From a virus: 20,196 nt of DNA. The stretch covers positions 1 through 20,196 of IMG/VR virus record IMGVR_UViG_3300033153_004069. One strand, 5' to 3'. The first letter of the stretch is position 1. Each line of letters starts with the position of its first letter. The translations under genes and the position numbers were made by a program. The notes beneath the pieces are model-generated. The model saw nothing but the letters and a program-made list of their open reading frames with translations, was not told the origin of the DNA and ran no database searches. Positions 2,544 through 18,468 of this stretch are shown in pieces.

Positions 2544-2715
2544 CTACGTCTGGGAGGATCTACAGCTAGATGTTAGGTATGTAGAGCTTAATCACCCTAA
2601 GATTGTTGCCCAGAGAATACTTTCACTAGAAAAAGAAGTTAGCCAGTTAAAGTATGTAAATACTATTAACGAGGAAATTATAAAGGAATACAAGAAGCGT
2701 GAGCGAAGAGATTGA
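2527..2715 (+). CDS. Small coiled-coil-like protein (62 aa)
   Basis: The N-terminus is aromatic and acidic (YSYVWEDLQLDV). Residues 25-60 form a probable coiled coil with Leu/Ile at heptad-like spacing (ILSLEKEVSQLKYV) and a basic end (KEYKKRERR). AAAGAGG lies about 4 bases before the ATG. It overlaps the preceding gene by 17 bases and the terminase start by 17 bases, so it belongs to the same transcript as the terminase. A packaging-related role is possible from position only. Confidence 0.55.
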   Translation: MEGEYSYVWEDLQLDVRYVELNHPKIVAQRILSLEKEVSQLKYVNTINEEIIKEYKKRERRD

Positions 2716-4117
2716 AGAAGAGGGAATAGCGGTTACACCGATGTCTGTGGCTAGGGCATTGGGGCTTACTCCGTATGGATGGCAGGAAGACGTAATGAAT
2801 AGCGTGGTTCCTATGTTTTCCCGCACTGCTCTTAGGGCTGCTAATGGTTCAGGTAAGACTGACATGGTAGTTGCGGTTTTGGTGTTGTGGCATGCTTTAG
2901 CTTTTAAAAACTCTCTAACTGTATTAACCTCAGGGGTTTGGAGACAGGTAAAGGAGCAGTTATTTCCCTCTATTATGCGTCATAGTAATAAGTTTCCAGG
3001 CTGGAAGTTCAATGCTACGGATTTCATAACCCCCGATGGATCAAGATGTATTGGATTTTCTACTGACGACCCTGGTAAGTTTGAGGGATGGCACGCTGTC
3101 TGTCACACTGAGTCACCTTTGCTTATAGTAATAGATGAGGCTAAGACGGTTAAGGCAGAAATCTTTCAAGCTAAGAATAGGTGTCAGCCTACTAGAGAGT
3201 TGCTGGTCTCCTCCCCTGGTGGGTCTATGGGAGAGTTTTACGAAGCTTTTCATAAGAAATCGCATATATATAATACTCATGCAGTTACAGCATACGATTG
3301 CCCGCATATTTCTAAGGATTGGATTAAGCAGCAGATAGATGAGTATGGGGAAGATCACCCATTTATTAGGTCTATGATTTTTGCGGAGTTCATGGACATG
3401 GGCGAAGACGGCACAGTAATACCTTTGTCTGTGCTAGAGAGGAACTTAAATACTAAGATCCATCCTGATACCTCAATGGAAGTGCATGCTTTTTGTGACT
3501 TTGCTGCTGGTGGTGACGAAAACGTTTTAGCGTTAAGGCGTGGTAACGTTGTTAAGGTGATTAGGGCTTGGCGTGAGACCAATACGATGTCTGGGTGTGG
3601 TGAGTTTATATCATTGTTTAATCAGCTGAAGTTAAGACCAGAGCATATATCTGCGGATGCGGGCGGTATGGGTAAAGTCTGGTGTGACCGATTTCAAGAG
3701 CTAGGCTGGGATGTAAATCGAGTGGATTTTGGTAGTAAACCTAATAATAAGCAGTTGTATTTCAATAGGATAGCAGAGATCTGGGGCGAAGGTGCTAGAA
3801 TGATCGAAGACAAAAAGTATATCCTCCCTGATGACGATGATGTTCTTAAACAGCAACTTACATCACGCAAATGGGAAAAGTATTTCTCAGACGGTAGACT
3901 CAAGCTGATTCCAAAGGACATGATGAAGAAGGACGGACTGTCTTCTCCTGACCGAGCGGAAGCGGTGCTTGGATGCATGATGCCACCCCCTACAGACCAG
4001 TGGCGCACACTAGGCTCAAATGTTGATAAATTCGGGGACTTATCCGATATAAATAACAATGAAGAGGGCTATCAGGGTATGATAGACGAAATGGGAATGA
4101 ATGTAGGAAATTATTAA
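2699..4117 (+). CDS. terL: Terminase large subunit (ATPase and nuclease)
   Basis: This motor protein pumps DNA into the prohead and cuts it. In its 472 residues I see Walker A at 49-54 (NGSGKT), Walker B at 141-147 (LLIVIDE, with D146 and E147), and a coupling-motif-like SSPGGS at 171-176. The C-terminal RNase H-like nuclease has candidate acidic residues at D267 (CDFAAGGDEN), D320 (ISADAGGMG) and D418 (PDRAEAVLG). Length is typical and all key motifs are present. The start chosen is GTG at 2699, overlapping the upstream gene. An alternative ATG at 2741 would still leave the Walker A intact. It is followed after two bases by the next gene. Confidence 0.96.
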   Translation: MSEEIEEEGIAVTPMSVARALGLTPYGWQEDVMNSVVPMFSRTALRAANGSGKTDMVVAVLVLWHALAFKNSLTVLTSGVWRQVKEQLFPSIMRHSNKFPGWKFNATDFITPDGSRCIGFSTDDPGKFEGWHAVCHTESPLLIVIDEAKTVKAEIFQAKNRCQPTRELLVSSPGGSMGEFYEAFHKKSHIYNTHAVTAYDCPHISKDWIKQQIDEYGEDHPFIRSMIFAEFMDMGEDGTVIPLSVLERNLNTKIHPDTSMEVHAFCDFAAGGDENVLALRRGNVVKVIRAWRETNTMSGCGEFISLFNQLKLRPEHISADAGGMGKVWCDRFQELGWDVNRVDFGSKPNNKQLYFNRIAEIWGEGARMIEDKKYILPDDDDVLKQQLTSRKWEKYFSDGRLKLIPKDMMKKDGLSSPDRAEAVLGCMMPPPTDQWRTLGSNVDKFGDLSDINNNEEGYQGMIDEMGMNVGNY

Positions 4118-4490: not shown

Positions 4491-5360
4491 ATGGCTACCA
4501 AGACCGATATAGACGTAACACCTGGATTGCAGGGTGATGGAGATGCTTCAGGTTTTTTGGACACGCTAGAGTTTGGCGTAACAGCCGGTGGTGCAGCCCA
4601 TCCTAGCACATCTTTAATTGGCGGTCAAAAGACAGTTGCAGGAGGCGGAACTGCATACAACAATGCTGGTGCTAATTCTATTTCTATTTTAACTGGTGCT
4701 GCTAATGCATCAAAACTAGCAACTGGACCTAGTGCTGTAGCTATTGGAAATGACGTTATTGCGACTGGTTTAAGTTCGGTTGCTATAGGTCAAGGAACTA
4801 ACGCTGGTGGTTCAACTGGAGGCACTGGTGGAAATATTGCTATTGGTTTAAACGCGCAAGCATCTGGTGGTAATCCAAATAAAATTGCAATTGGACGCTC
4901 TGCAAATTCTGGAAGCGGTCAAGATGGAATATCGATTGGGTCTGTTGCTGTTGGAACTGGTAGTTTTTCAATTTGTATTGGCGGGTCTACCGCTGCATCA
5001 AATGGTGGTATTGGAATGGGGTTTGGAGCTGTAGGCTCTGGCACTGTATCGGTCTCAATTGGAAGAGCTAGCGATGCTACTCAAACTGGCTCGATTGCTA
5101 TTGGAGGAGATTCTGGAACGGGAGCGCAAGCCACAGGATTAGGATCAATTGCTGTCGGAGGAGACAGTGGTGCTAGGTCTTCTGCAATAGCATCAGGGTC
5201 TCATTCGGTGCAAATAGGATCAGGAACAAACTCCATCGCAGATTCATGTCAAATAGGATCTGCTGCAAATCCTTTAGAAATATTTTTAAACCTGCCAGTG
5301 GTAGCTGGAACTACGGGATCACTTTATAGTAATGCGGGTGTAGTAACTGTATCGCCTTAA
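4491..5360 (+). CDS. YadA-head-like beta-roll tail fibre protein
   Basis: From about residue 83 to 256 this 289-aa protein has about twelve repeats of the motif hydrophobic-A/S-I/V-G: VAIG at 83 and 97, IAIG at 116, 132 and 202, ISIG 147, ICIG 161, VSIG 188, IAVG 220, QIG 241 and 254. These alternate with Gly/Ser/Ala-rich loops spaced 13-20 residues apart. This is the signature of the left-handed parallel beta-roll of YadA-type trimeric adhesin heads, also found in phage fibres. The short C-terminus (TTGSLYSNAGVVTVS) is typical of fibre ends. AGAGGAGG lies 8 bases before the ATG. It is probably a receptor-binding or fibre subunit. Two GGDSG-containing repeats (about 202-230) are the most alike. 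Confidence 0.85.
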   Translation: MATKTDIDVTPGLQGDGDASGFLDTLEFGVTAGGAAHPSTSLIGGQKTVAGGGTAYNNAGANSISILTGAANASKLATGPSAVAIGNDVIATGLSSVAIGQGTNAGGSTGGTGGNIAIGLNAQASGGNPNKIAIGRSANSGSGQDGISIGSVAVGTGSFSICIGGSTAASNGGIGMGFGAVGSGTVSVSIGRASDATQTGSIAIGGDSGTGAQATGLGSIAVGGDSGARSSAIASGSHSVQIGSGTNSIADSCQIGSAANPLEIFLNLPVVAGTTGSLYSNAGVVTVSP

Positions 5361-5697: not shown

Positions 5698-5801
5698 TGC
5701 CCGAGAAGGATCGCAGATACAAGCTAAACCCATTTACGGGTAAGTTTGATCGCAGCCTATTGCCTACGGATGAAGGCACAGCTGCGGGCGTAGATGGGTA
5801 A
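5697..5801 (+). pseudogene. Fibre N-terminus cut off by a 58-bp duplication (34 aa)
   Basis: This frame starts at a TAATG overlap with the previous gene and encodes MPEKDRRYKLNPFTGKFD and so on, ending GVDG then TAA. The N-P-F-T-G-K-F-D segment is a well-known N-terminal motif of phage tail-fibre proteins. It should run on into the fibre gene, but an exact 58-bp tandem duplication shifts the frame and brings in a stop at 5799-5801. Deleting one copy restores a single frame of about 136 aa. The downstream frame starts at an ATG created by the junction, 8 bases inside this one. It could be a peptide with reinitiation, a phase-variable state, or an assembly artefact. Confidence 0.6.
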
Positions 5802-5855
5802 GTTTGATCGCAGCCTATTGCCTACGGATGAAGGCACAGCTGCGGGCGTAGATGG
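5738..5855 (+). repeat. Exact 58-bp tandem duplication
   Basis: Copy one spans 5738-5795 and copy two 5796-5853, identical at every base; two further bases also match (60 bases shared in all). The unit length is not a multiple of three, so it changes the reading frame of the fibre gene. There are no other copies in the window. Confidence 0.95.
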
Positions 5856-6165
5856 ACAGGTCCAGTTTAATGATGATGGTGCATTAGGTGGAGATTCGGG
5901 TCTTACTTATGATAAAGATTCAGACACGCTTACAGTTGTTGGTTTTATTAAGCTTCCTAGCGCACCAGTATCAGATGCAGACGCTGCTAATAAGAAATAT
6001 GTAGACGATGCAATTGCCAATTCTAGCTCTGATGGATTTGTTTACACTAATATTCAGGCAGGAGAAGAAGTCACTATTCCAGTCAGAAGACAGATGGCTG
6101 TTCATGGTGAATTGATAATCGAGGGAGATTTGATAATCGAGGGAGAATTAGTTATAGAGGAGTGA
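5794..6165 (+). CDS. Tail fibre / trimeric receptor-binding segment (123 aa as it stands)
   Basis: Residues 1-20 repeat the end of the upstream frame (GKFDRSLLPTDEG). VQFNDDGALGGDSGLTYD (about 23-40) and ADAANKKYVDDAI (about 63-75) are both standard phage fibre motifs. A probable coiled-coil to beta transition follows. The C-terminus is three hexapeptides of the form (E/D)L(I/V)IE(G/E), a beta-solenoid-like cap seen at the end of many fibre proteins. The start codon ATG 5794 exists only because of the 58-bp duplication; the likely ancestral start is 5697. It is followed by the next fibre gene after one base, behind GAGGAG. Confidence 0.8.
   Translation: MGKFDRSLLPTDEGTAAGVDGQVQFNDDGALGGDSGLTYDKDSDTLTVVGFIKLPSAPVSDADAANKKYVDDAIANSSSDGFVYTNIQAGEEVTIPVRRQMAVHGELIIEGDLIIEGELVIEE
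6109..6162 (+). repeat. Three 18-bp tandem repeats at gene end
   Basis: Units at 6109-6126, 6127-6144 and 6145-6162 run directly to the TGA. The first two differ at one base; the third is diverged. They encode ELIIEG, DLIIEG and ELVIEE. Confidence 0.85.
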
Positions 6166-6166
6166 T

Positions 6167-7891
6167 ATGGCAGACGGAACAATTAGATTAGCGGCAACAT
6201 CAGAGCCGGACACTCCGCCAACAGGTAGAGCGTATATATATGTCGATACAACTGACAATCATCCAAAGGTTAAGATTGATAATGGGACAGTATTTGACTT
6301 AAGTAACATCACAACAATCACAGGCACCCCCATAGATAACCAATTAGCTGTTTGGACTGGATCTAATGGCCAAGAGGGAGACCCCAATTTAACATGGGAT
6401 GGATCTGAGCTTTCAGTCACTGGTGACATTGCAGTATCTGGTACGGTTGACGGAGTTGATATATCTGATTTAGACTCATCTGTTGTTAAGCTTTCGGGTG
6501 ACCAAGTTGTAGCTGGTATAAAAACATTTTCTTCTTTCCCCGTAACACCATCTTTAGCACCAACTACAGATTATGAGGTAGCCAACAAGAAATACGTAGA
6601 TGACAATACAGCAGGGAGTGGAGATGTTTCTGGTCCTGTTAGTTCTACAGACAATAATGTTGTTTTCTTTGACGGTGTTACTGGTAAGATAATAAAGGAC
6701 TCAGGGTTATCTTTGTCTGGAACAAATACTGGTGACGAGGTTGATGCAACCGACACAACCAAGGGTATTGTTGAGCTTGCTACAGATGGTGAAACTGCGG
6801 CTAACGTTGCTGTTCAAGGCAACGACTCTAGGCTTTCTGATAGCAGAGACCCAAACAATCACGCATCAAACCATACTGACGGAACAGATGACATACAAGA
6901 TGCTACGAATGCGCAGAAAGGTTTAGCTACTGCCAGTCAAATTACAGACTTAGAAGCTAATACTACACATAGGACATCAGACGGATCAGACCATACTTTT
7001 ATAGATCAGGATGTGACAAGTGGAGCGGCCCCAACATTTGATGGAAGTAACTTTACTAATATTCCTGCAGGCACACCAGCTGCTCATGCTGCCTCTCACA
7101 CTGATGGAACAGATGATATTCAGAATGCAACAAACGCACAAAAGGGATTGGCAACAGCTAGTCAAATCACTGATTTAGAGGCAAACACTACTCACAGAAC
7201 TTCAGATGGCAGCGATCATACCTTTATTGATCAAGACGTAACATCAGGATCTTCTCCGACTTTAGATGGTGCAAATATCACAGGGCTTGTAACGGCTTCA
7301 TACGATGATGATTCAGTTGCTAATGCTAAACTTGCTAATATGGGAGCAAATACTGCAAAGCTAAACCCAACAGCATCGGCAGCAGACCCTCAAGATGTAA
7401 CCTTTAATTCTTTTACTACATTAGGCAGAGACTCAGGATTACTGAGGCCATTGACTAGAGATGAGTTAAAAGCTGCTCAAGGGTTTCCAAGAATTGAAAC
7501 TTCAGAATATAAAGTAGGATCAACTGCAGATCCTACAACTACAGCATCAACAGCTGCTACAGCACCTACGCTTCCCGAAATGACTCACACATTTTCAGGC
7601 GCAGACACAACCAATAGAATTAGAGTTTGGTTTACTGGAGAGTTTAGCAATAATAATAAAAACGGTGCGGTTGCTTGCGGAGTATTTGTTGATGGAACAC
7701 TTGAAGCTGAAACGGAAAGAATTTCTCAGGAAGATCCGAATGATGAAACTGAACTTACCGCAATATGGCAAGGTAACTTACCGACCGCAAACTCTACTGT
7801 AGATATTAGGTATTGGGATCCTCAAGGAAATGGAACCGTTACCGCAGAGGGAATAAAGAGAAATATGATGATTGATGAGGTGGACATATGA
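6167..7891 (+). CDS. Large tail fibre / receptor-binding protein (574 aa)
   Basis: The N-terminus (GTIRLAATSEPDTPPTGRAY, then YVDTTDNHPKVKIDNGT) is a short beta module common at the start of phage fibre proteins. A fibre shaft follows with motifs such as EVANKKYVDD (about 140-149) and DGSNFTNIPAG. Residues 236-286 and 311-361 are near-identical copies of a 51-residue segment, part of a 75-residue repeat. The C-terminal 140 residues (from about 432) are a beta-rich domain with FVDGTLEAETE and TVDIRYWDPQGNGTV, probably the receptor-binding tip. GAGGAG precedes the ATG. The stop overlaps the next start as ATGA. The exact receptor is unknown. Confidence 0.88.
   Translation: MADGTIRLAATSEPDTPPTGRAYIYVDTTDNHPKVKIDNGTVFDLSNITTITGTPIDNQLAVWTGSNGQEGDPNLTWDGSELSVTGDIAVSGTVDGVDISDLDSSVVKLSGDQVVAGIKTFSSFPVTPSLAPTTDYEVANKKYVDDNTAGSGDVSGPVSSTDNNVVFFDGVTGKIIKDSGLSLSGTNTGDEVDATDTTKGIVELATDGETAANVAVQGNDSRLSDSRDPNNHASNHTDGTDDIQDATNAQKGLATASQITDLEANTTHRTSDGSDHTFIDQDVTSGAAPTFDGSNFTNIPAGTPAAHAASHTDGTDDIQNATNAQKGLATASQITDLEANTTHRTSDGSDHTFIDQDVTSGSSPTLDGANITGLVTASYDDDSVANAKLANMGANTAKLNPTASAADPQDVTFNSFTTLGRDSGLLRPLTRDELKAAQGFPRIETSEYKVGSTADPTTTASTAATAPTLPEMTHTFSGADTTNRIRVWFTGEFSNNNKNGAVACGVFVDGTLEAETERISQEDPNDETELTAIWQGNLPTANSTVDIRYWDPQGNGTVTAEGIKRNMMIDEVDI
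6872..7249 (+). repeat. Protein-level repeat with diverged codons
   Basis: Copies at 6872-7024 and 7097-7249 lie 225 bases (75 codons) apart. They encode 51 residues identical except for one D/N, yet by my count 36 of the 50 identical residues use a different codon. The copies are nearly perfect in protein but not in DNA. Confidence 0.9.
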
Positions 7892-8229
7892 ATAAGTGCG
7901 GAGAATGTACGGTTTGCTGTGGTGTTTTTTCTATACCTCAACTTAGTAAGCCAAAGAATAAGATGTGTGGTCATTGCGCAGACGGTTGCTCTATATATGA
8001 AGATAGGCCAGAGCCTTGCAGGGATTTTGCCTGTGCTTGGCTGGTTGGAAATTGGCGAAAAGAGCTTAGACCCGACTTGTCAGGGATAATGATTCAGAAT
8101 ACTCCAGATGGCTATGAAGCGTTGCAGATTCAGGACGATGTTGACCAACTCATTCTTGATCAAATTGATTACATAGAAGTTAACTATGGCGTAAACATAA
8201 AGCGTGTAGACGCTAGAAAGATTGCATAA
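7888..8229 (+). CDS. CxxCxxCC (YkgJ-like) cysteine-cluster protein
   Basis: The N-terminus has C4-x2-C7-x2-C10-C11, followed by C27, C30 and C34 and the motif IYEDRPEPCRDFAC with C44 and C49. This cysteine arrangement with the Y-x-x-R-P-x-x-C-R-x-F segment matches the CxxCxxCC/YkgJ family (PF03692), thought to bind zinc or an Fe-S cluster. The C-terminal 50 residues are a soluble acidic tail with no recognised domain. GAGGTGG lies 4 bases before the ATG, which overlaps the fibre stop (ATGA), and its TAA overlaps the next ATG. Its place inside a fibre cassette suggests a role in fibre maturation or modification; that is inference. Confidence 0.85.
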   Translation: MNKCGECTVCCGVFSIPQLSKPKNKMCGHCADGCSIYEDRPEPCRDFACAWLVGNWRKELRPDLSGIMIQNTPDGYEALQIQDDVDQLILDQIDYIEVNYGVNIKRVDARKIA

Positions 8230-8798
8230 TGAGTAATTTAATTAAAACATATTCCATATTAAATGATATTATTACTCAGACCGTAGATATTGTTAAGCTT
8301 TGCAATCAAATATCTGAAAGCGGATTCGTAGAAGATTATGCATCTCTATCAAAAGAAGGCGATTTTTTAAAAGTGTGGGGTGATTCAATGGGAAATGAGT
8401 CAGGTCTTGATGATTTAGTAAGGGATCATAACCCATTTGATTTAGACGAATATAAGCAATATAAAAACGACAATCAGATCGATAAAAGGACCGAAGAGCT
8501 AATACTGTCTGGATATGATTACGGTGGCACACTAATGAGTTCTTCATTAAATTCACAGGCCAACCTAATGGCGGTCCATAAAGACAGAAACGAGGCTTGG
8601 CTATCTTATCCGATTACTTTTAGTAGCAAAGATAATTTGAGCAGCATCTCAATTGCTAACGCTACAGAACTAAACAATTTATATCTAGCTTTCCTTTCCC
8701 ATAAAAAGGGCCATATGGACAGTGGTAATGTACTAAAGGACCAAGTCAGAGCAGCCACAACAAAAGGTGCTGTTGACGCAATAATAGACAGTAGATAA
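8229..8798 (+). CDS. Fibre-associated protein with DUF4376-like C-terminus (189 aa)
   Basis: The N-terminal 85 residues are helical and acidic without a recognised fold. Residues about 90-185 (ELILSGYDYGG, SLNSQANLMAV, PITFSSKDNLSS, ATELNNLYLAF, GNVLKDQVRAATTKG) follow the pattern of the DUF4376-type domain at the end of phage tail proteins, often next to fibre genes. It is coupled by TAATG to the cysteine-cluster gene and to the next small gene. A fibre chaperone or assembly role is likely from context, but not shown. Confidence 0.6.
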   Translation: MSNLIKTYSILNDIITQTVDIVKLCNQISESGFVEDYASLSKEGDFLKVWGDSMGNESGLDDLVRDHNPFDLDEYKQYKNDNQIDKRTEELILSGYDYGGTLMSSSLNSQANLMAVHKDRNEAWLSYPITFSSKDNLSSISIANATELNNLYLAFLSHKKGHMDSGNVLKDQVRAATTKGAVDAIIDSR

Positions 8799-10045: not shown

Positions 10046-11977
10046 ATGGCTAATTATAATCAGATTTACGGAGGTGGCCCAAACGATAGCACAGCTAATC
10101 AATACTTAAGCCCAGAAGAGGATTTATACGGAAGAGTATTAATAGACCTTACTGAGCGTGAAGTTTGGGAAACTAGACAGGACACTTTTTACAAAATGCG
10201 TAATCACGGATTGCGTAGAAAGAATAAGCCTTGGTCCGGTGCTTCTGATATGCACTACCCGCTTATCGATAATACCATTCGTAAGCTTCTTCCATTTTAC
10301 TATGCACAATTTGCGTCTCAAGATCTTGTAGCTAAGTTTGTGGCTGGCCCACAGGTAGATGATGAGCTAAGAGCTAAAACTGCTAACGTAGAGCAGTGGT
10401 TTGATTATAAGATCAAGGAAGAGACAAACTTTGAAGATGAGTTGATGATCCTTATTGACTACATGCTTCAGACTGGTCACGGCATCATGAAGACTAGATG
10501 GAACCCAGATGGGAATAAAGTAGAATACGACGCTGTTGACCCTCTTTACATAATTGTTCCAGGCTACACAAGAAGCTTGGAGACTGCGGATCGCATTACC
10601 GAGGTTATTCAATACTCAACTAGAGAGTATATGTCTCACCCAGAATACAACCAAGATCCAGATTTAATTAAAGCAATATCACAACAGGAGGCATGGAGTT
10701 ATTTTGAAAAAGACGATTCTAGATACGATAGGGAAGGCATTACGCGTGGACACAGAGACCAAATCATCATATGGAACACATACGTTAAACGCCCTGATGG
10801 TGGCTACAATGTTCATTACTATTCTCCTAATGCTCCTGATAGGCCAGTTCGTGAGCCTTTTGAGTTACCATACAATCATGGTATGGCTCCGTATACGGAC
10901 TTTCTACATGAAAAGAAAGAGAAGAGATACTACGAGTCAAGAGGGATAGCTGAACTATTGGGCGTATATGAGCTTTCAGCAACTAAGATGTGGAATCTTA
11001 AGCTGGACGCTATGGCTTATTACAATAACCCGATATACACTGTAGACGGGCAGCCCAGTGGAAACATGGGCAATCTCAACATGAGACCTGGACAGGTATT
11101 CCCTAACAACCTACGAAGAGTTGATCAAGGTGGTCCAGCAATATCATGGGATCAGGAAATCACTAGGACTCAGGTAGTTGCAGAAGATACAGCGCAAGTT
11201 CCTGACTTTGGAATTGGTGACAAGTATGCGCAAGCAGCTGGTGGTGGCGGAGAAAAGCGCACTGCTACTGAAGTAAATGCTATCGGTCAGATGGTTAATA
11301 CTGGTGTGGATCTTAAGTCTAGACTCTTTAGACGTTCACTAACAAAACTTTACAAACAAACATTCTCACTATACCAGCAGTATCACAATGATGAAACTGA
11401 TGTAGTTGTTGATGATCAATCGGTATCTATTAGCAAAGATGAGCTTAATGCGGATTATAGAATTACTCCATCTGGCGCACCAGACTCATGGGATAAGGAC
11501 CGCATGTATGGAAAAGCTCTTAATCGCTATCAGATACTCTTAGGAAACCCTTATACTGATCAAGGGCAGCTAACTAAGGACTTAATGGAAAATGACGAGG
11601 TAGGCCTATCTAAGAGGCTTTACGTAGATCCTAATCAGGTAGCAGCAGAAGAGGCTGAAGATGAGGCAATCGAGATAGGAGCATTACTGCTTCAGGGCCA
11701 TCCAGCCATTGTCAAACCAGAGGATAACGATGCGGTCAGAATCATGGTGTTGGCCACAAAGATCATATCTATGGCACAAAACCTAGAGCAACCTACTAAT
11801 CCTCAGGCACTTATGATGATACAACAACACATGGAAGAGCATTTCTTGAACTTTGCAAGAAAAGATAGTCAAGCTGCCCAAGAATTGAGGGAGCAAATAG
11901 AGGGGATGTTTGCGGAACAACTAGGTCCACAAGCAGCACCAGATCAAGGCCAACCACCTATGGGACCAGTTGAATAA
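10046..11977 (+). CDS. Portal protein (643 aa)
   Basis: It forms the dodecameric ring through which DNA enters and leaves the capsid. Features match podovirus-type portals: KNKPWSGASDMHYPLIDNTI near residues 60-79, a helical region after it, DAVDPLYIIVPG (about 165-176), RGIAELLGVYELSATKMWN (stem/clip region, near residue 300), and the long C-terminal helices with KRTATEVNAI. The C-terminal end is rich in Gln and Pro (QAAPDQGQPPMGP). The length suits this class. Its start has an A-rich leader with no Shine-Dalgarno. Its stop overlaps the next gene as TAATG, ahead of scaffold and capsid. Confidence 0.93.
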   Translation: MANYNQIYGGGPNDSTANQYLSPEEDLYGRVLIDLTEREVWETRQDTFYKMRNHGLRRKNKPWSGASDMHYPLIDNTIRKLLPFYYAQFASQDLVAKFVAGPQVDDELRAKTANVEQWFDYKIKEETNFEDELMILIDYMLQTGHGIMKTRWNPDGNKVEYDAVDPLYIIVPGYTRSLETADRITEVIQYSTREYMSHPEYNQDPDLIKAISQQEAWSYFEKDDSRYDREGITRGHRDQIIIWNTYVKRPDGGYNVHYYSPNAPDRPVREPFELPYNHGMAPYTDFLHEKKEKRYYESRGIAELLGVYELSATKMWNLKLDAMAYYNNPIYTVDGQPSGNMGNLNMRPGQVFPNNLRRVDQGGPAISWDQEITRTQVVAEDTAQVPDFGIGDKYAQAAGGGGEKRTATEVNAIGQMVNTGVDLKSRLFRRSLTKLYKQTFSLYQQYHNDETDVVVDDQSVSISKDELNADYRITPSGAPDSWDKDRMYGKALNRYQILLGNPYTDQGQLTKDLMENDEVGLSKRLYVDPNQVAAEEAEDEAIEIGALLLQGHPAIVKPEDNDAVRIMVLATKIISMAQNLEQPTNPQALMMIQQHMEEHFLNFARKDSQAAQELREQIEGMFAEQLGPQAAPDQGQPPMGPVE

Positions 11978-12354
11978 TGCGATATTTTATACGATATATT
12001 AAGATGATGATGAGGCTAACCTACTCACCATCAAAGATAATACCTTCCGAGGAAATGATCTGGGATGAACAGGATAAAGTTAACCTGTCAACCTTCATGG
12101 AATCAGGCACAGGAAAGAGATTTAGCAAAATACTGAAAAACATAGAAGCAGAAACAAACGCAATAACCGTAATGAAAGACAGTAATACTAAATGGAATAA
12201 TGGAAATGCTTTTGGCAATCGCACTATGCTTGCTCATGTATTTGCACTGTCGGCTATCGATCCCCAGCCGAACGAAGGGGATGAATACGAGGCTTTAAGG
12301 CGTGAGACAGGCTTTGAAGGACTCGAATCACTTATGTCTCAATATAAAGGTTAA
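11977..12354 (+). CDS. Hypothetical protein between portal and scaffold (125 aa)
   Basis: After a basic, Met-rich start, the protein has a helical body (DKVNLSTFMESGTGKRFSKI, then KNIEAETNAITVM) and a C-terminal part with FGNRTMLAHVFALSAID. The TAATG overlap with portal supports the start at 11977; ATG 12004 is an alternative that drops the basic leader. Small helical proteins of this kind sit between portal and scaffold in many podophages, but I do not recognise a named family. It may be a head-assembly accessory. Confidence 0.6.
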   Translation: MRYFIRYIKMMMRLTYSPSKIIPSEEMIWDEQDKVNLSTFMESGTGKRFSKILKNIEAETNAITVMKDSNTKWNNGNAFGNRTMLAHVFALSAIDPQPNEGDEYEALRRETGFEGLESLMSQYKG

Positions 12355-12355
12355 A

Positions 12356-13384
12356 ATGAACCCACAAGATGAAATGCAAGAGTTGGATGCTATGGAAGCC
12401 GAGCTTATGGCGGATGCTGCACAAGAAGATGCGCGTATCCCTGATGAGTTTGAGAATCCTGCAGAAACTGTCGATATTGAACAGGAGAATATCGAGCCAT
12501 TAGTTGAAAGCTCTGAAGACAGCCAGATGGAAGCTGAAATTCCACAGAACGAAGATATTGCTGATGAGTCAGCTAATGAAGAAACAGTAAATGAAGAACT
12601 CAACGAAGAAGAAGAAAATGTTCCTTCTGACACCGAGGATAACTTGCTGGATGAGGAAAATCAGACTGAACAGGATGAAAAGCCTCTTAGCAAGCGGGAC
12701 AAAGAAAGAGCAAGACTAGACAAATCTTGGCAAAAACAAGAGGCGTTTAAAGCTGAGAACATGGAAGAGCGTGAGCGTTTACAGCGTGAGCGTGAAGAGT
12801 TCGAGAAGCAGAAAGCTGAAGTCGAGGAGAAAAATCGTCCACCCACAGCTAAAGAATACCGTGACCTAGCGAAATGGTATGAAGAGAAGGGTGAGTATGA
12901 GAAAGCTGAGGAAGCCAAGAATATGGCTGATATAGCACACGAAAAGGAATACGAGGAGTTGCAAAACTCTCAACGTATGTCTGCGGAGAATCAAGCAAAG
13001 TTCCAAAAGGAGTTTTGGGAGACTGCAGATAAATTCGTAAATCTTCCCGAGAATAAAGAGTTACAAGATGTCAACACGCCACTGGGTCAAGCGGTTAAGG
13101 GTCTCCTAGAGAAGGAGCCTAGATTGCTTTCTATGCCTGATGGGTTCGAGGTGGCAACTAATATAGCTCGAGGACAGGTAGCTGTTTCATCATTAGCTGA
13201 CGCAAATAAGCGTATTACTGAATTAGAAAACGAAATTAAAACACTTAATAAAAAGACTTCTATCGGAAATTCAGGTGCTAATGGTCACAATCCAACTCCA
13301 TCTAAAAGGCCACAGAGCTTAGATGCTGAGTTTGAACAATTGCAGGCTGAAGCACGAAGAGAGGATGCCCGATTAGGAGTATAA
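12356..13384 (+). CDS. Capsid scaffolding protein (342 aa)
   Basis: It directs capsid assembly and is lost before or during packaging. Residues 1-110 are very acidic and low-complexity. A basic/acidic coiled coil follows (about 112-160), then a helical region with KWYEEKGEYEKAEEAKNMAD (173-192), and a C-terminal coiled segment (KRITELENEIKTLNKK, 285-300) followed by a flexible basic tail. This layout and the position directly before the capsid gene are typical. The start chosen is ATG 12356, with AAAGG five bases upstream; an in-frame ATG at 12302 lies inside the preceding gene and is less likely. Confidence 0.88.
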   Translation: MNPQDEMQELDAMEAELMADAAQEDARIPDEFENPAETVDIEQENIEPLVESSEDSQMEAEIPQNEDIADESANEETVNEELNEEEENVPSDTEDNLLDEENQTEQDEKPLSKRDKERARLDKSWQKQEAFKAENMEERERLQREREEFEKQKAEVEEKNRPPTAKEYRDLAKWYEEKGEYEKAEEAKNMADIAHEKEYEELQNSQRMSAENQAKFQKEFWETADKFVNLPENKELQDVNTPLGQAVKGLLEKEPRLLSMPDGFEVATNIARGQVAVSSLADANKRITELENEIKTLNKKTSIGNSGANGHNPTPSKRPQSLDAEFEQLQAEARREDARLGV

Positions 13385-13397
13385 CTAATCTAAAATT

Positions 13398-14459
13398 ATG
13401 AGTAACCCTATTACAACTACTACAAGCGGTTTGACTTCAAATCGTTACTCGGAGTTCTTCAATAAGAAACTCCTTCATCATGCAATCCAACAGGAGCGTT
13501 TGGGCGAAGTTTGCACTAAGTTCGATCTTCCTGCTAACGTAGGTTCAACTACAATGAGAATGTTCAAGCGTTCAGAGGCTTCTGCTTCTACAGTTGAGCA
13601 GGCTACTGAAGGTGCGCCAACAACTAACTTCACAAACAGCACGTTGACTCCAATCGACATCGCTCTTACTCAGTGGTCTGAGAAGGTAAAGATTTCTGAC
13701 ACTCGCAGAAAGACAGACCTAATCAACCAGCTTAAGCTAGAGGTTGAGCGTATGGGTGAAGCTGCAGCTTACAAGGCTGACGAAATCATTCGTGACGCTA
13801 TCGTTGAAGAAATCATGTATAATGGCACAACTGCTATTACTGACTCTGGTTTCAACCAGTTCGTTGGACATGACAACCTAGATGGTGCTACTGAAGCTCA
13901 GTTGGAAACAGCTTGGGACATATTCAAGGCTCTATCTGCATCTGATGCTAAGGTAAAGGTTACAGACCTTCGTGCTTCTGTTACTCACCTTCGCAGAAAG
14001 CGTGCATTGCCATTTGAAGGCGGATGTTTCATGGCTGCTCTTACACCAGAGCAAATTCATGACCTACAAGACGACAGCCAGTGGAATGCGGTTAACATCT
14101 ACCAAGGTGGTGGCGAGCGCATCTACAAGGGTGAAGTTGGTAAGATCGCAGGATGTAAAGTAGTCGATTGGACACTAGCATTCAAACAAGATTCAACAGC
14201 TGGTAGCTTCGGCACATTCGCAGCAGACGGTGATGTATTCACTGGATTTGTGTTTGGCCGTGAGGCAGTAGGCTGCATGAAGCTTGCAGGATCTACATCT
14301 CCAATGCGTCCACGTTTTATCGTGAATGACAAACCTGACAAAAGCGACCCATTGAATCAGTTCATCACAGCTGGTTGGATCGGATACTTCGCTGCTAAGG
14401 TTCTAGACAAGAATTGGGTAACAGCAATTCACTCTAAGTCTACATTCGACGGAGCATAA
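13398..14459 (+). CDS. Major capsid protein, N4 gp56-like
   Basis: The 353-aa sequence follows the N4-gp56 capsid family (PF13252) pattern: TTTSGLTSNRYSEFFNKKLL at the start, LGEVCTKFDLPANVGSTTMR at 36-54, TEGAP at 70-74, and TQWSEKVKISD at 91-101. A long helix follows at about 107-140, with IMYNG after it. The C-terminal region has a second beta-rich part (VFTGFVFGREAVGCMKLAGS). This is the HK97-fold shell subunit. Isoleucine codons are nearly all ATT/ATC, as expected for a highly expressed gene. No Shine-Dalgarno precedes the ATG; the leader is TCTAAAATT. A GC-rich hairpin follows the stop. Confidence 0.93.
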   Translation: MSNPITTTTSGLTSNRYSEFFNKKLLHHAIQQERLGEVCTKFDLPANVGSTTMRMFKRSEASASTVEQATEGAPTTNFTNSTLTPIDIALTQWSEKVKISDTRRKTDLINQLKLEVERMGEAAAYKADEIIRDAIVEEIMYNGTTAITDSGFNQFVGHDNLDGATEAQLETAWDIFKALSASDAKVKVTDLRASVTHLRRKRALPFEGGCFMAALTPEQIHDLQDDSQWNAVNIYQGGGERIYKGEVGKIAGCKVVDWTLAFKQDSTAGSFGTFAADGDVFTGFVFGREAVGCMKLAGSTSPMRPRFIVNDKPDKSDPLNQFITAGWIGYFAAKVLDKNWVTAIHSKSTFDGA

Positions 14460-14477: not shown

Positions 14478-14507
14478 GGGCATTGAGGGTCTATTCCCTC
14501 TTTGCCC
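14478..14507 (+). terminator. Hairpin after the capsid gene
   Basis: GGGCA (14478-14482) pairs with TGCCC (14503-14507), and GAGGG (14485-14489) with CCCTC (14496-14500), around TCTATT. A TT/TT internal loop separates the stems, as in the hairpin at 9137-9186. It is not followed by a U-run, so partial termination or mRNA 3'-end protection is as likely as full termination. Confidence 0.6.
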
Positions 14508-14526: not shown

Positions 14527-15216
14527 ATGTCAGATCCAAATTTACCTAATTTAAGTGCGAAAGTCGTACAGGACAAAGAAGCTGTCTTTGAAGATATGCT
14601 AGGTGCTGACGCTTCATCTGAATCAATTGCAAAACTTGAGCCATACAGATACTTCCACCCTGGACGTAGCTCTCGTGAGTCTTCAGCATCTCATGCTAGT
14701 CAGGCTTCACGCGGTTCTCTTGCTTCTGTTCCAGCTATTGAGGTGTATCCTAGTAGAGCTTCTGTTGCTTCTTCAGGCACAGCAGGCACAGCTGCAGCGT
14801 TAGGCTCTATTGCTTCACGTGCAAGTGCTGCTTCCACTGGTTCTGCTGGTGATGCTGCATCTCATGCTGCTTCTCCATCTTACATCAGTCAGGCAAGTGT
14901 TGCTAGTGCTGGTGCTATCGGCACTATCGCATCAAAGGCTTCACAGGGATCACTAGGAAGCGTTGCTTCTGATCCTGCAAATATCTCACTCGCATCTCGT
15001 GCATCCATTGGTTCAACTGGCTCTATCGCAGCTGTTGCTTCCGTTGCATCGAAAGCAGAAGGCGAAACACGTGCATCAGCTGGTGCGGTTGCTTCGGTTG
15101 CCTCTGTTGCTAGTGCAGCATCTGTTGCTTCAAGAGCAGAAGACGCTGTATATCCAGGGGTTGCTGCGGTTACAGGTGTGGCCAAGATCCATAAGATTGA
15201 GTGGAACGAGGTATAA
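14527..15216 (+). CDS. Ala/Ser-rich triplet-repeat protein next to capsid (229 aa)
   Basis: The N-terminal 50 residues are ordinary and include LGADASSESIAKLEPYRYF. From residue 54 to 206 every third residue is Ala or Gly (sometimes Pro), and the next is almost always Ser, Thr or Ala: 51 consecutive triplets of form (A/G)-(S/T/A)-x without loss of phase. Blocks starting at P69, P117 and P150 each span 33 residues and contain a pair of Gly triplets near the middle. The C-terminal segment (VAKIHKIEWNEV) is a different, mixed sequence. The gene directly follows the major capsid gene and is followed by a terminator-like hairpin, so it is probably made in quantity. A capsid decoration or fibre with a collagen- or polyglycine-II-like fold is my inference. 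I recognise no family. Confidence 0.8.
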   Translation: MSDPNLPNLSAKVVQDKEAVFEDMLGADASSESIAKLEPYRYFHPGRSSRESSASHASQASRGSLASVPAIEVYPSRASVASSGTAGTAAALGSIASRASAASTGSAGDAASHAASPSYISQASVASAGAIGTIASKASQGSLGSVASDPANISLASRASIGSTGSIAAVASVASKAEGETRASAGAVASVASVASAASVASRAEDAVYPGVAAVTGVAKIHKIEWNEV

Positions 15217-15237
15217 ACCAAAATCTTAACAGTAATG

Positions 15238-15267
15238 GGTGGCTAGGTAGAAGCCTAGTCACCTTTT
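15238..15267 (+). terminator. Intrinsic terminator after the triplet-repeat gene
   Basis: GGTGGCTAGG (15238-15247) pairs with CCTAGTCACC (15254-15263), ten base pairs including one G-T pair, around TAGAAG, followed at once by TTTT. It is the best intrinsic terminator in the window, between the triplet-repeat gene and the next structural gene. An outer TGGGT/ACCCA pairing is also possible. Confidence 0.7.
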
Positions 15268-15285
15268 ACCCAATAACTTTATAAC

Positions 15286-16046: not shown

Positions 16047-16706
16047 ATGGGACAAACTAAAGGACAGATGGTCGATTATGTTACCGACAAGTTCGGTATC
16101 ACGACTGAGGAGGTAAAGAATCGTGCTAGAGGTTTCTATGATGTTAGATATAGAATGATCTGGGACCGCTTTTACTGGAAGCAGACTAAGGTTAGTGAAA
16201 CTGCTAGTGTTGCTGCCAATCAGCAGGATGTTACATTTACTTCTTTAATTGATAAGGTTGTGGCTATACGCTGGAACAATCGAAGACTTTTACCTGTAAA
16301 TCAAGAGCAGGTATTTCAATTAGATCCGGAGGCGTTTGATAGCCAAGGCGAGGTCGTTGGGTTTTCTGAGCTTCCCAAGGACAGTAGCGGATTATCTAGA
16401 ATACGACTCTATGAGATACCACAAGAGGCGAAGGAAGTATTGGTGCTAGGTAAGGCTCCTCCGGAAACTTTAACACATGGACAAAGCCCCAGAATGGTTG
16501 GAATAGACCAGTCTTTGCAGGCATATGTATTGGGCGACCTATGGCAGTCTATTCGTCAGTTCAGTAAGGCGAATGAATTGTATAGAGAAGCTGAGACATT
16601 TCTGAACCAGATGATCAAAATTGAGCAAGAGCAGTCAGCATACGACAATCGCATAATCCCTTATGACGATGAGCAGTATGACCGAGACGACCTATTCTAT
16701 GAGTAA
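16047..16706 (+). CDS. Head-tail adaptor protein (219 aa)
   Basis: The protein is mostly helical with a beta insertion: VTDKFGITTEEVKNRARGFYD near the start, AVAANQQDVTFTS-like beta region at about 53-68, a strand-rich centre (VVAIRWNNRRLLPVN), and a helical C-terminus (YVLGDLWQSIRQFSKANELY, then REAETFLNQMIKIEQE) ending acidic. This matches podovirus adaptor proteins (T7 gp11/P22 gp4 type), which connect portal and nozzle. The start is taken at ATG 16047, behind AGTAGG. Its last codons overlap the next gene by 8 bases. Function rests on pattern and on the neighbouring nozzle-like gene. Confidence 0.72.
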   Translation: MGQTKGQMVDYVTDKFGITTEEVKNRARGFYDVRYRMIWDRFYWKQTKVSETASVAANQQDVTFTSLIDKVVAIRWNNRRLLPVNQEQVFQLDPEAFDSQGEVVGFSELPKDSSGLSRIRLYEIPQEAKEVLVLGKAPPETLTHGQSPRMVGIDQSLQAYVLGDLWQSIRQFSKANELYREAETFLNQMIKIEQEQSAYDNRIIPYDDEQYDRDDLFYE

Positions 16707-18468
16707 TTTAAATATAGACTCTCTTGACGATTATCCTTTGGATGCTGGAACATCTGGCTTCATGGGGACTAATAGTAGGATGCGTCCTGCTCTTATCCCT
16801 GATGAAATGCTCTCTCAAGGGGAAGATACTATTATAGGTGAAACAGGGATGTCTCAGACTAGATACCCTGTTAAAGTCATAGAAAACACCCTTATAGACC
16901 CTACGTCTGCTCAGGGCATATTCTACTATGACACCAGAACAAAGGAGCGTATAATCGTTGCTGCAAACAATGGTTTGTATGCTGCCGACGCTAGAGTTGC
17001 TCCTAACTGGGAAGATTTAAATAGGTCAGTTGCTGGTGAGACTACATTCGCACAGCTTGACAATAAAATGTATTTCGTAGATGGAGACAAATATTCACGC
17101 TGGGATGGCTCTGCTATTACTGATGTATTATCGTTTGGCAATACTAGTAGAAGCATGCCCAAGTTTAATGATTTAATATCACATGATAACAGAATTTTGC
17201 TGTCTGCTATTAATGACCCTAATTATGATGACGATGCAATATATGCTTCTGACATACTTAATGGGGATTTCGTAAATTCAAACTTCAACGTGCGTGTTGG
17301 AGGGGGTGAAGGAGACCCTATAGTAAAGATTGTTTCATGGCACGAAAGTTATATAGCAGTTCTAAAACAAAGAAGCGTTTACGTGGTAAACACCTCAACC
17401 GCAATAGGAAATCTAGGAGAAGGGCCAGCAGACCCTCAAAACTGGTTTCAACAAAAGGTATCGCACACATTGGGTTGTGTAGCCAAAAACACTGCCGTAG
17501 TTGTAGGCAACGATGTTTGGTTCCTATCCAGAGAGGGATTGACAAGCCTTCAAAGAACTAAGGAGTCTGTTCAAAGACAACTAAGTGCTATTGTGTTAAA
17601 TACTGAGGTCAATGACGTATTTGAGGATATTAATTGGGACTATGCTTTTAATGCATGCGCTGGATTCTTTAACAATAGATACTATATTGCTTTACCAGTT
17701 GGAACATCTCAGATTCCTAACGTAACATTGTCTTTTAATATGCTTTCTGGTAAGTGGGATGGTAAATGGACAGGTACAGCTTGGAGACCATCTTATATGC
17801 ATAGATCAGCCTTTGGAAGCAACAGGCATCTTATAATGCAGGATGTAGAGGGCAATACTTACTGGCAGAAGGAAGAAGGTGGTGTGTATGAGTCTAGGGA
17901 CCAGCTGCCTAATGAAACTCAGACATCTGGAGCTTTGACTGTTGGTGAAGCGTATGTTATTCGCGAATACCAAACGGGAGATGACTTTACTAATGTGGGT
18001 GCAGATAGCAATACAACAGGCCATTACTTTGTGGCAACAGGCACTACACCTACGGATTACACAAATGGATCAACTTTAGACAGACATGTGTTTGAGGATA
18101 TTGACATAGACACAATTACTAAGGCTTGGGACTTTGGTCATCCAATTAACTTTAAGTCAGGATTCAATGCTGAAGTAGACTTCTTTAGGTCACACGGCAC
18201 TGTAGATATATTCCTGATACCTGATGACGATGAGACAAGAAAGCTTAAGATAGCTGAAAACGTGTCTACATCATTTAACCCTACGCTACCTCAACAGCTG
18301 CCATACACCTTCAACGGAAAGCTCGACAAGAGAGTCATTGAAGAGGTGAGAAATATTGAGCAGTTCAAAGAGATTAAAGTTCAAATAGTTGGAAACGGTG
18401 CTGAAATCAAGACGAGACGCATTCAGCTTACTGCATTCCTAAATACATTCGAGGTGGATAATAACTAA
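16699..18468 (+). CDS. Nozzle-like tail tube / tail hub protein (589 aa)
   Basis: Many segments have blade-like strands (GIFYYDTRTKERIIVAANNG, then FAQLDNKMYFVDGDKYSRWD, and DVWFLSREGLTSLQ), as in beta-propeller-containing nozzle proteins of short-tailed phages (T7 gp12/P22 gp10 type). It directly follows the adaptor gene, overlapping it by 8 bases. Residues 411-460 (YVIREYQTGDDFTNVGADSN to NGSTL) match a small domain found in many unrelated phage tail proteins and look like an insertion in the host sequence. The C-terminal 100 residues are again beta-rich with FFRSHGTVDIFLIPDDD. ATG 16699 is preferred over an in-frame ATG at 16663 that lies inside the adaptor. Its stop overlaps the next gene as TAATG. 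Confidence 0.75.
   Translation: MSNLNIDSLDDYPLDAGTSGFMGTNSRMRPALIPDEMLSQGEDTIIGETGMSQTRYPVKVIENTLIDPTSAQGIFYYDTRTKERIIVAANNGLYAADARVAPNWEDLNRSVAGETTFAQLDNKMYFVDGDKYSRWDGSAITDVLSFGNTSRSMPKFNDLISHDNRILLSAINDPNYDDDAIYASDILNGDFVNSNFNVRVGGGEGDPIVKIVSWHESYIAVLKQRSVYVVNTSTAIGNLGEGPADPQNWFQQKVSHTLGCVAKNTAVVVGNDVWFLSREGLTSLQRTKESVQRQLSAIVLNTEVNDVFEDINWDYAFNACAGFFNNRYYIALPVGTSQIPNVTLSFNMLSGKWDGKWTGTAWRPSYMHRSAFGSNRHLIMQDVEGNTYWQKEEGGVYESRDQLPNETQTSGALTVGEAYVIREYQTGDDFTNVGADSNTTGHYFVATGTTPTDYTNGSTLDRHVFEDIDIDTITKAWDFGHPINFKSGFNAEVDFFRSHGTVDIFLIPDDDETRKLKIAENVSTSFNPTLPQQLPYTFNGKLDKRVIEEVRNIEQFKEIKVQIVGNGAEIKTRRIQLTAFLNTFEVDNN

Follow-up and report, generated by a model that had tools for sequence, protein, structure and literature searches.

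A triplet-repeat protein with an exact three-residue period encoded behind the major capsid gene of a phage

Results

The window analysed here is the whole of IMG/VR virus record IMGVR_UViG_3300033153_004069, 20,196 bases long, which carries a podovirus-like head module. It encodes a terminase (2699-4117), an SU10-type portal protein (10046..11977, + strand; SU10_portal, E=4e-10), an acidic scaffold-like protein (12302..13384, +) with a weak match to PHROG 8865, head scaffolding (E=0.045), and, following the scaffold-like gene, a major capsid protein of 353 residues (13398..14459, +; PHROG 1357, E=8.6e-32; Pfam Phage_capsid_4). The scaffold-like protein likely starts at an ATG inside the listed open reading frame (ORF). 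The ORF list places a triplet-repeat protein of 229 residues, here called P0001, at 14527..15216 (+). As originally predicted, its gene adjoins the major capsid gene, the gap between the two being 67 bases.

A second contig, L001, carries the same region with a DNA identity of 99.76%. The triplet gene is intact in L001 and its protein is identical, none of the 11 base differences falling in the triplet ORF or the capsid gene. Four of the 11 are clustered in a 64-base stretch (13319-13382, +) at the end of the scaffold-like gene.

Elsewhere in the window, a fibre gene (6167-7891) and the genes for a Cys-rich protein (7888-8229) and a DUF4376 protein (8229-8798) together occupy 6167..8798 on the + strand. 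The Cys-rich protein, whose gene overlaps the end of the fibre gene, starts with CxxCxxCC, matches PHROG 9155 and has a YkgJ-like look; it is a putative fibre-linked metal or redox protein. A perfect 58-bp tandem duplication (5738-5855, +) consists of two identical copies and repeats the start of ORF 5794-6165. Between the terminase and fibre genes lies a 289-residue protein with YadA-head-type repeats (4491-5360, +; Pfam YadA_head, E=2.7e-5), a candidate for a second repeat-built surface protein. The sole PHROG match of a 601-residue protein (16663-18468, +) is labelled 'amidase' (E=1.8e-9); judged by its position this may be a tail protein, and the label misleading.

The triplet gene is flanked by two RNA hairpins. 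The first, in the interval between the capsid and triplet genes (14478..14507, +; -20.8 kcal/mol, z -4.0), has no T run, was absent from the original prediction and is a candidate processing or attenuation site. The second lies 3' of the triplet gene and is followed by TTTT (15232..15269, +; -23.7 kcal/mol, z -4.6). A terminator had been proposed behind the triplet gene: a strong hairpin is indeed present, but only four T stand behind its stem, and a consensus terminator scan did not flag it. It is a candidate terminator. The two hairpins would fit a capsid-triplet transcript that is separately processed and terminated.

P0001 is composed of an acidic non-repeat N-terminal part (residues 1-53, net charge -3; 14527..14685, +), a region of 51 triplets (residues 54-206; 14686..15144, +) and a non-repeat C-terminal part, AVYPGVAAVTGVAKIHKIEWNEV (residues 207-229; 15145..15213, +). 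The N-terminal part is a candidate anchor, and the C-terminal part a candidate tip or anchor. The Fourier spectrum of P0001 has one sharp peak, at 3.00 residues, with a power of 33.9 for A/G and 46.4 for S/T. This peak is common to Ala/Gly, Ser/Thr and bulky residues (power 16-46), while the power at 3.5 and 3.6 is about 1 or less, which is noise. The rule (A/G)(S/T/A)x is followed by 40 of the 51 triplets, compared with a mean of 13.8 (sd 1.7, maximum 23) in 10,000 shuffles of the same residues. The spectrum and the shuffles thus bear out the strict period that had been predicted for residues 54-206, with its phase never lost.

The original description of 51 in-phase small-residue triplets is correct as to the single phase, but 11 of the triplets depart from the rule. 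The first position is Ala in 30 and Gly in 13 of the 51 triplets, and its exceptions number eight (P69, E72, P75, P117, I120, P150, I153 and E180; four Pro, two Ile and two Glu), not four as first counted. The second position has four exceptions (V73, D109, E178 and E205), and the third is mostly V, A, R, I, L or Q. A 33-residue superrepeat marked by Pro at 69, 117 and 150 had also been proposed. These Pro are in fact 48 and 33 residues apart, and the self-identity of P0001 at lag 33 is below that of phase-preserving shuffles (z -0.44), so this superrepeat was rejected. The best self-identity lag is 21; its z of 2.87 does not exceed the 95% limit of the maximum, 3.07.

The Ser residues at the second position are encoded by mixed codons (TCT 14, TCA 9, AGT 7, TCC 3, TCG 2 and AGC 1). 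AGY Ser codons are two base changes away from TCN, and a mixture of synonymous codons that includes AGY indicates that the triplets are maintained by selection at the protein level. Tandem Repeats Finder returned only scraps of 2-3 copies from the triplet ORF. Given the mixed codons and these scraps, an origin as a DNA microsatellite or tandem repeat was rejected: the triplet period is kept by selection on the protein, not by DNA slippage.

In its synonymous codon usage the triplet gene is, among 21 window genes, the nearest to the capsid gene. Scored for capsid-like codon usage against its own amino-acid make-up, it reaches a z of 3.8, compared with 3.9 for the portal gene, 2.4 for the scaffold gene and -0.05 for TerL; the fibre gene shows the opposite trend (-1.7). 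Such usage suggests that the gene is strongly expressed or has long been part of the head operon, and it may reflect membership of that operon instead of abundance.

Related capsid genes (23-34% identity) were found at 79 loci. Within the locus DNA examined, the triplet protein was undetected at all 79, and the gene is absent behind the 45 related capsid genes that were inspected individually; the slot behind the capsid gene holds assorted small proteins. On these results the triplet gene is accessory, and a core role for it in this capsid family was rejected.

A second stand-alone triplet protein, P0002 (216 residues), is encoded on contig IMGVR_UViG_3300033146_000553 (L344:6903-7553:-), where the gene order is portal, scaffold-like protein, 557-residue putative capsid protein, 129-residue protein, P0002, 257-residue protein and 1462-residue protein. 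The 557-residue protein has no family match, is called a capsid protein from gene order only, and no relatives of it were found beyond itself. P0002 follows the same triplet rule as P0001, with the same third-position preferences, and likewise stands alone behind a capsid gene (putative in this case). However, the terminase, portal and capsid proteins of its phage are unrelated to those of the window, its triplets form two blocks with a one-residue slip at LYPSH, and its ends are unrelated to those of P0001, their similarity being no better than that of shuffles. Loss of phase in homologues had been put forward as evidence that would count against the original prediction: the only close homologue, that of L001, is identical, and P0002, the one comparable stand-alone protein, keeps the period apart from its one slip.

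The score of 215 between the cores of P0001 and P0002 was reached by 117 of 500 triplet-shuffled versions of P0001, indicating that the resemblance is explicable by the triplet make-up. It was reached by none of 500 triplet-shuffled versions of P0002, though this shuffle scrambles the two phases of P0002. A tblastn search with 26 window proteins against the second triplet phage gave only four counterparts, namely the fibre C-terminal (tip) domain, the Cys-rich protein, the DUF4376 protein and the triplet protein. The first three are encoded consecutively and in identical order in both phages; the Cys-rich counterpart is 43% identical and again lies behind a related fibre-tip domain. That a triplet protein and host-contact genes are common to two otherwise unrelated phages would fit a surface role linked to a common host group.

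Triplets of this type were also sought in viral contigs by DNA pattern scans filtered by reading frame, the counts being lower bounds among the matches listed. Among these matches, two kinds of A-[ST]-x protein are credible: long fibre-type ORFs with an internal tract of roughly 8-30 triplets, and one stand-alone protein, P0002. The tract-bearing protein L253 matches tail-fibre PHROGs and has a Peptidase_S74 chaperone domain, and L110, L049 and L052 also have tail-fibre PHROG matches; L075, L236, L280, L289 and L387 are fibre-like proteins with no informative family match. The tract types A-T-N, A-S-Y and A-S-F recur in very different fibre-type proteins (L110, L253, L075, L236, L289 and L387). 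The A-[ST]-x tract is not covered by any Pfam family; its one Pfam hit, to a His-rich family of Plasmodium, is sub-threshold. Most of the ASR/ASL/ASV 'relatives' from the scans proved to be either opposite-strand frames of collagen-like or ATE/ATD triplet-repeat genes or 9-bp DNA microsatellites and were discarded, among them nearly all of the strong genome-contig matches. Searches of named phages with the repeats by tblastn found none, probably owing to the low-complexity filter. P0001 shares the A-[ST]-x pattern and its period of 3.00 with the tract-bearing tail fibres; searches with Pfam, NCBIfam and PHROG recognised in it neither an N-terminal fibre domain nor a tip or chaperone domain. 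The triplet motif itself is not new, being present within recognised tail fibres, while a free-standing, capsid-linked Ala-Ser-x protein seems undescribed.

Three residues per turn is the geometry of a polyproline-II (PPII)-type helix, compared with 3.6 for an alpha helix, 3.5 for a heptad repeat and 2 for a beta strand. The exact period of 3.00 fits PPII-type geometry and none of the other three. The same period was found in both blocks of P0002 and in the fibre tract of L253, and the same spectrum method, applied as a control to the Ala/Ser-rich tract of lambda Stf, gave peaks at 3.5 and 7 (10.7-12.9 at 3.5, for A/G and A). P0001 lacks the Gly at every third residue of a collagen, including the SPP1 gp12 type. 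With Gly at ~9% of the repeat region, it also lacks the composition of a Gly-rich PPII bundle, whose helices pack via Gly faces, and it has no seven-residue or 3.5 period of an Ala/Ser coiled coil. The original view that Gly lacks its collagen function here agrees with its presence at 13 of 51 first positions. To our knowledge, a regular structure with a turn of exactly three residues depends on Gly or Pro, and both known packings of three-per-turn chains, collagen and PPII bundles, require Gly. Since P0001 is Gly-poor relative to these packings, either its chains would pack otherwise or the region would be an extended, mainly disordered bristle.

AlphaFold2 monomer models had a pLDDT of 41.6 for P0001 and 35.0 for P0002, and the helices drawn in them therefore carry no meaning, also as regards the plain disordered or helical prediction that was to count against the original view. 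Searches of PDB sequences with P0001, the P0002 core and two fibre tracts returned no informative solved relative. P0001 has no match in Pfam and a single, sub-threshold match in NCBIfam, to HxsA4 (19.5 bits against a cut-off of 55), a score too low for that family of His-Xaa-Ser repeat proteins. Its only PHROG match, PHROG 36982 (E=0.0011), was rejected as low-complexity, as it also matches three unrelated control genomes. The originally proposed new fibrous fold goes too far in one respect, as A-[ST]-x triplets inside recognised tail fibres show that P0001 is not alone in this chemistry; its proposed place on the capsid surface is putative.

Discussion

SPP1 gp12 is a trimeric, non-essential protein of 64 residues with a collagen-like middle, present in about 180 copies at hexon centres and encoded between the scaffold and capsid genes (PMC6813328, PMC6316719); host adhesion is its suggested role (PMC7602432). 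Like gp12, P0001 is small and accessory, has a three-residue repeat in its middle and is encoded beside the capsid gene (PMC6813328, PMC6316719). Unlike gp12, with its 64 residues and Gly-x-y centre, it has 229 residues and Ala/Ser triplets of which 13 of 51 begin with Gly. P0001 may, by analogy, work as gp12 does, but it lacks the Gly that defines a collagen and does not belong to that class.

Our favoured reading, at somewhat less than an even chance, is that P0001 is a head-fibre or decoration protein: accessory, abundant at the virion surface, made together with the capsid and built around an extended, PPII-like body of three residues per turn. Attachment to the capsid or neck would be through the N-terminal 53 residues or the short C-terminal part. 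In the body of 51 triplets, an extended polyproline-II-like course would align Ala/Gly, Ser/Thr and variable residues in three stripes along a rod. Contacts between the small-residue stripes would hold several chains together, probably three, leaving the variable stripe (V, I, L, R, Q, K) to face outward and bind loosely to cells or surfaces. We infer the extended three-per-turn geometry, oligomeric state, virion location and adhesion of P0001; the proposal as a whole draws on the 3.00 period, the mixed codons, the capsid-like codon usage, the placement of P0002, the shared fibre module, the fibre tracts and the gp12 precedent. Counted against it are the scarcity of Gly compared with known PPII bundles and collagen, the low-confidence models, PDB searches that gave no solved structure with such a tract, the absence from the 79 related-capsid loci, the possibility that capsid-like codons mark operon membership, and a likeness between P0001 and P0002 that stays within their triplet make-up.

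The same repeat could instead form a disordered, hydrated bristle on the virion, comparable to Pro/Ala/Ser polymers or Ala-Ala-Thr antifreeze glycoproteins and perhaps O-glycosylated along its Ser stripe; the period would then serve to keep Ser and variable residues at regular distances rather than to maintain a fold. We regard this as possible, if on the unlikely side. P0001 is Ala/Ser-rich, has few hydrophobic residues except V/I/L at the third position and gave no confident AlphaFold structure. The antifreeze glycoproteins, (Ala-Ala-Thr)n, have a similar tripeptide repeat of Ala and a hydroxyl residue and are largely disordered, with a debated PPII content (PMC6628104), although they are glycosylated fish proteins and unrelated to P0001. 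However, 51 triplets in a single phase are stricter than a disordered spacer requires, similar tracts lie within recognised tail fibres, and among the window proteins scanned none was recognised as a glycosyltransferase.

An ordered packing has partial parallels in the snow flea antifreeze protein, which is 46% Gly, and the T-even adhesin tip, which like P0001 use small residues for packing and have three residues per turn, a geometry that is putative in P0001 (PMC8409303). Both are Gly-rich with loop-joined helices, whereas P0001 is Gly-scarce and has long stretches. That Ala-Ser-x defines an unrecognised fold, a Gly-poor, non-collagen multi-chain helix with three residues per turn that occurs in fibre tracts as well as in free-standing head rods (P0001 and P0002), is a speculative proposal that we consider rather unlikely to be right.

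It is improbable that P0001 is a fibre shaft of the tail or neck, its tract expressed as a separate short chain, and not a capsid decoration. The tail-fibre ORFs L253, L110 and L049 have the same period and residue classes, more structural genes lie downstream of the triplet gene, and a fibre-tip module is common to both triplet phages. The tracts of L253, L110, L075 and L236 share with P0001 the exact 3.00 period, with Ala first and Ser/Thr second, but they amount to roughly 8-30 triplets within fibres of 230-2300 residues and have N, T, L, F or Y third, whereas P0001 is triplets over nearly its whole length, with V, R, I, L, Q or A third. Against the shaft reading, P0001 is devoid of recognised fibre domains, the codons of its gene are capsid-like where those of the window's fibre gene trend the opposite way, and in both phages the triplet gene lies near the capsid gene (putative in the second).

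It is very doubtful that P0001 forms a trimeric alpha-helical coiled coil of the lambda Stf type or that of PCoil, a region of prophage collagens that is a helical trimer by experiment (PMC3368898): P0001 is Ala/Ser-rich and low-complexity like these rods of phage fibres, and helices appear in its low-confidence models, but its period is 3.00 with nothing at the 3.5 and 7 of their heptads, and Pro stands at in-phase positions. Least credible of all is a role outside the virion or as the precursor of a modified peptide, such as those with His-Xaa-Ser repeats. The sub-threshold HxsA4 match and the YkgJ-like Cys-rich protein of both triplet phages might speak for it, but P0001 has few His, no radical-SAM maturase was recognised among the window proteins scanned, and the Cys-rich gene sits beside the fibre gene and apart from the triplet gene.

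The novelty lies in a short protein of little but triplets, encoded near the capsid gene (putative in the second phage) in two unrelated phages. The same Ala-Ser-x chemistry occurs both free-standing beside capsid genes and inside tail fibres. A Gly-poor Ala-Ser-x repeat with a strict period, under selection at the protein level, points to a fibrous structure that is missed by prediction tools, and this question can be tested on one small protein.
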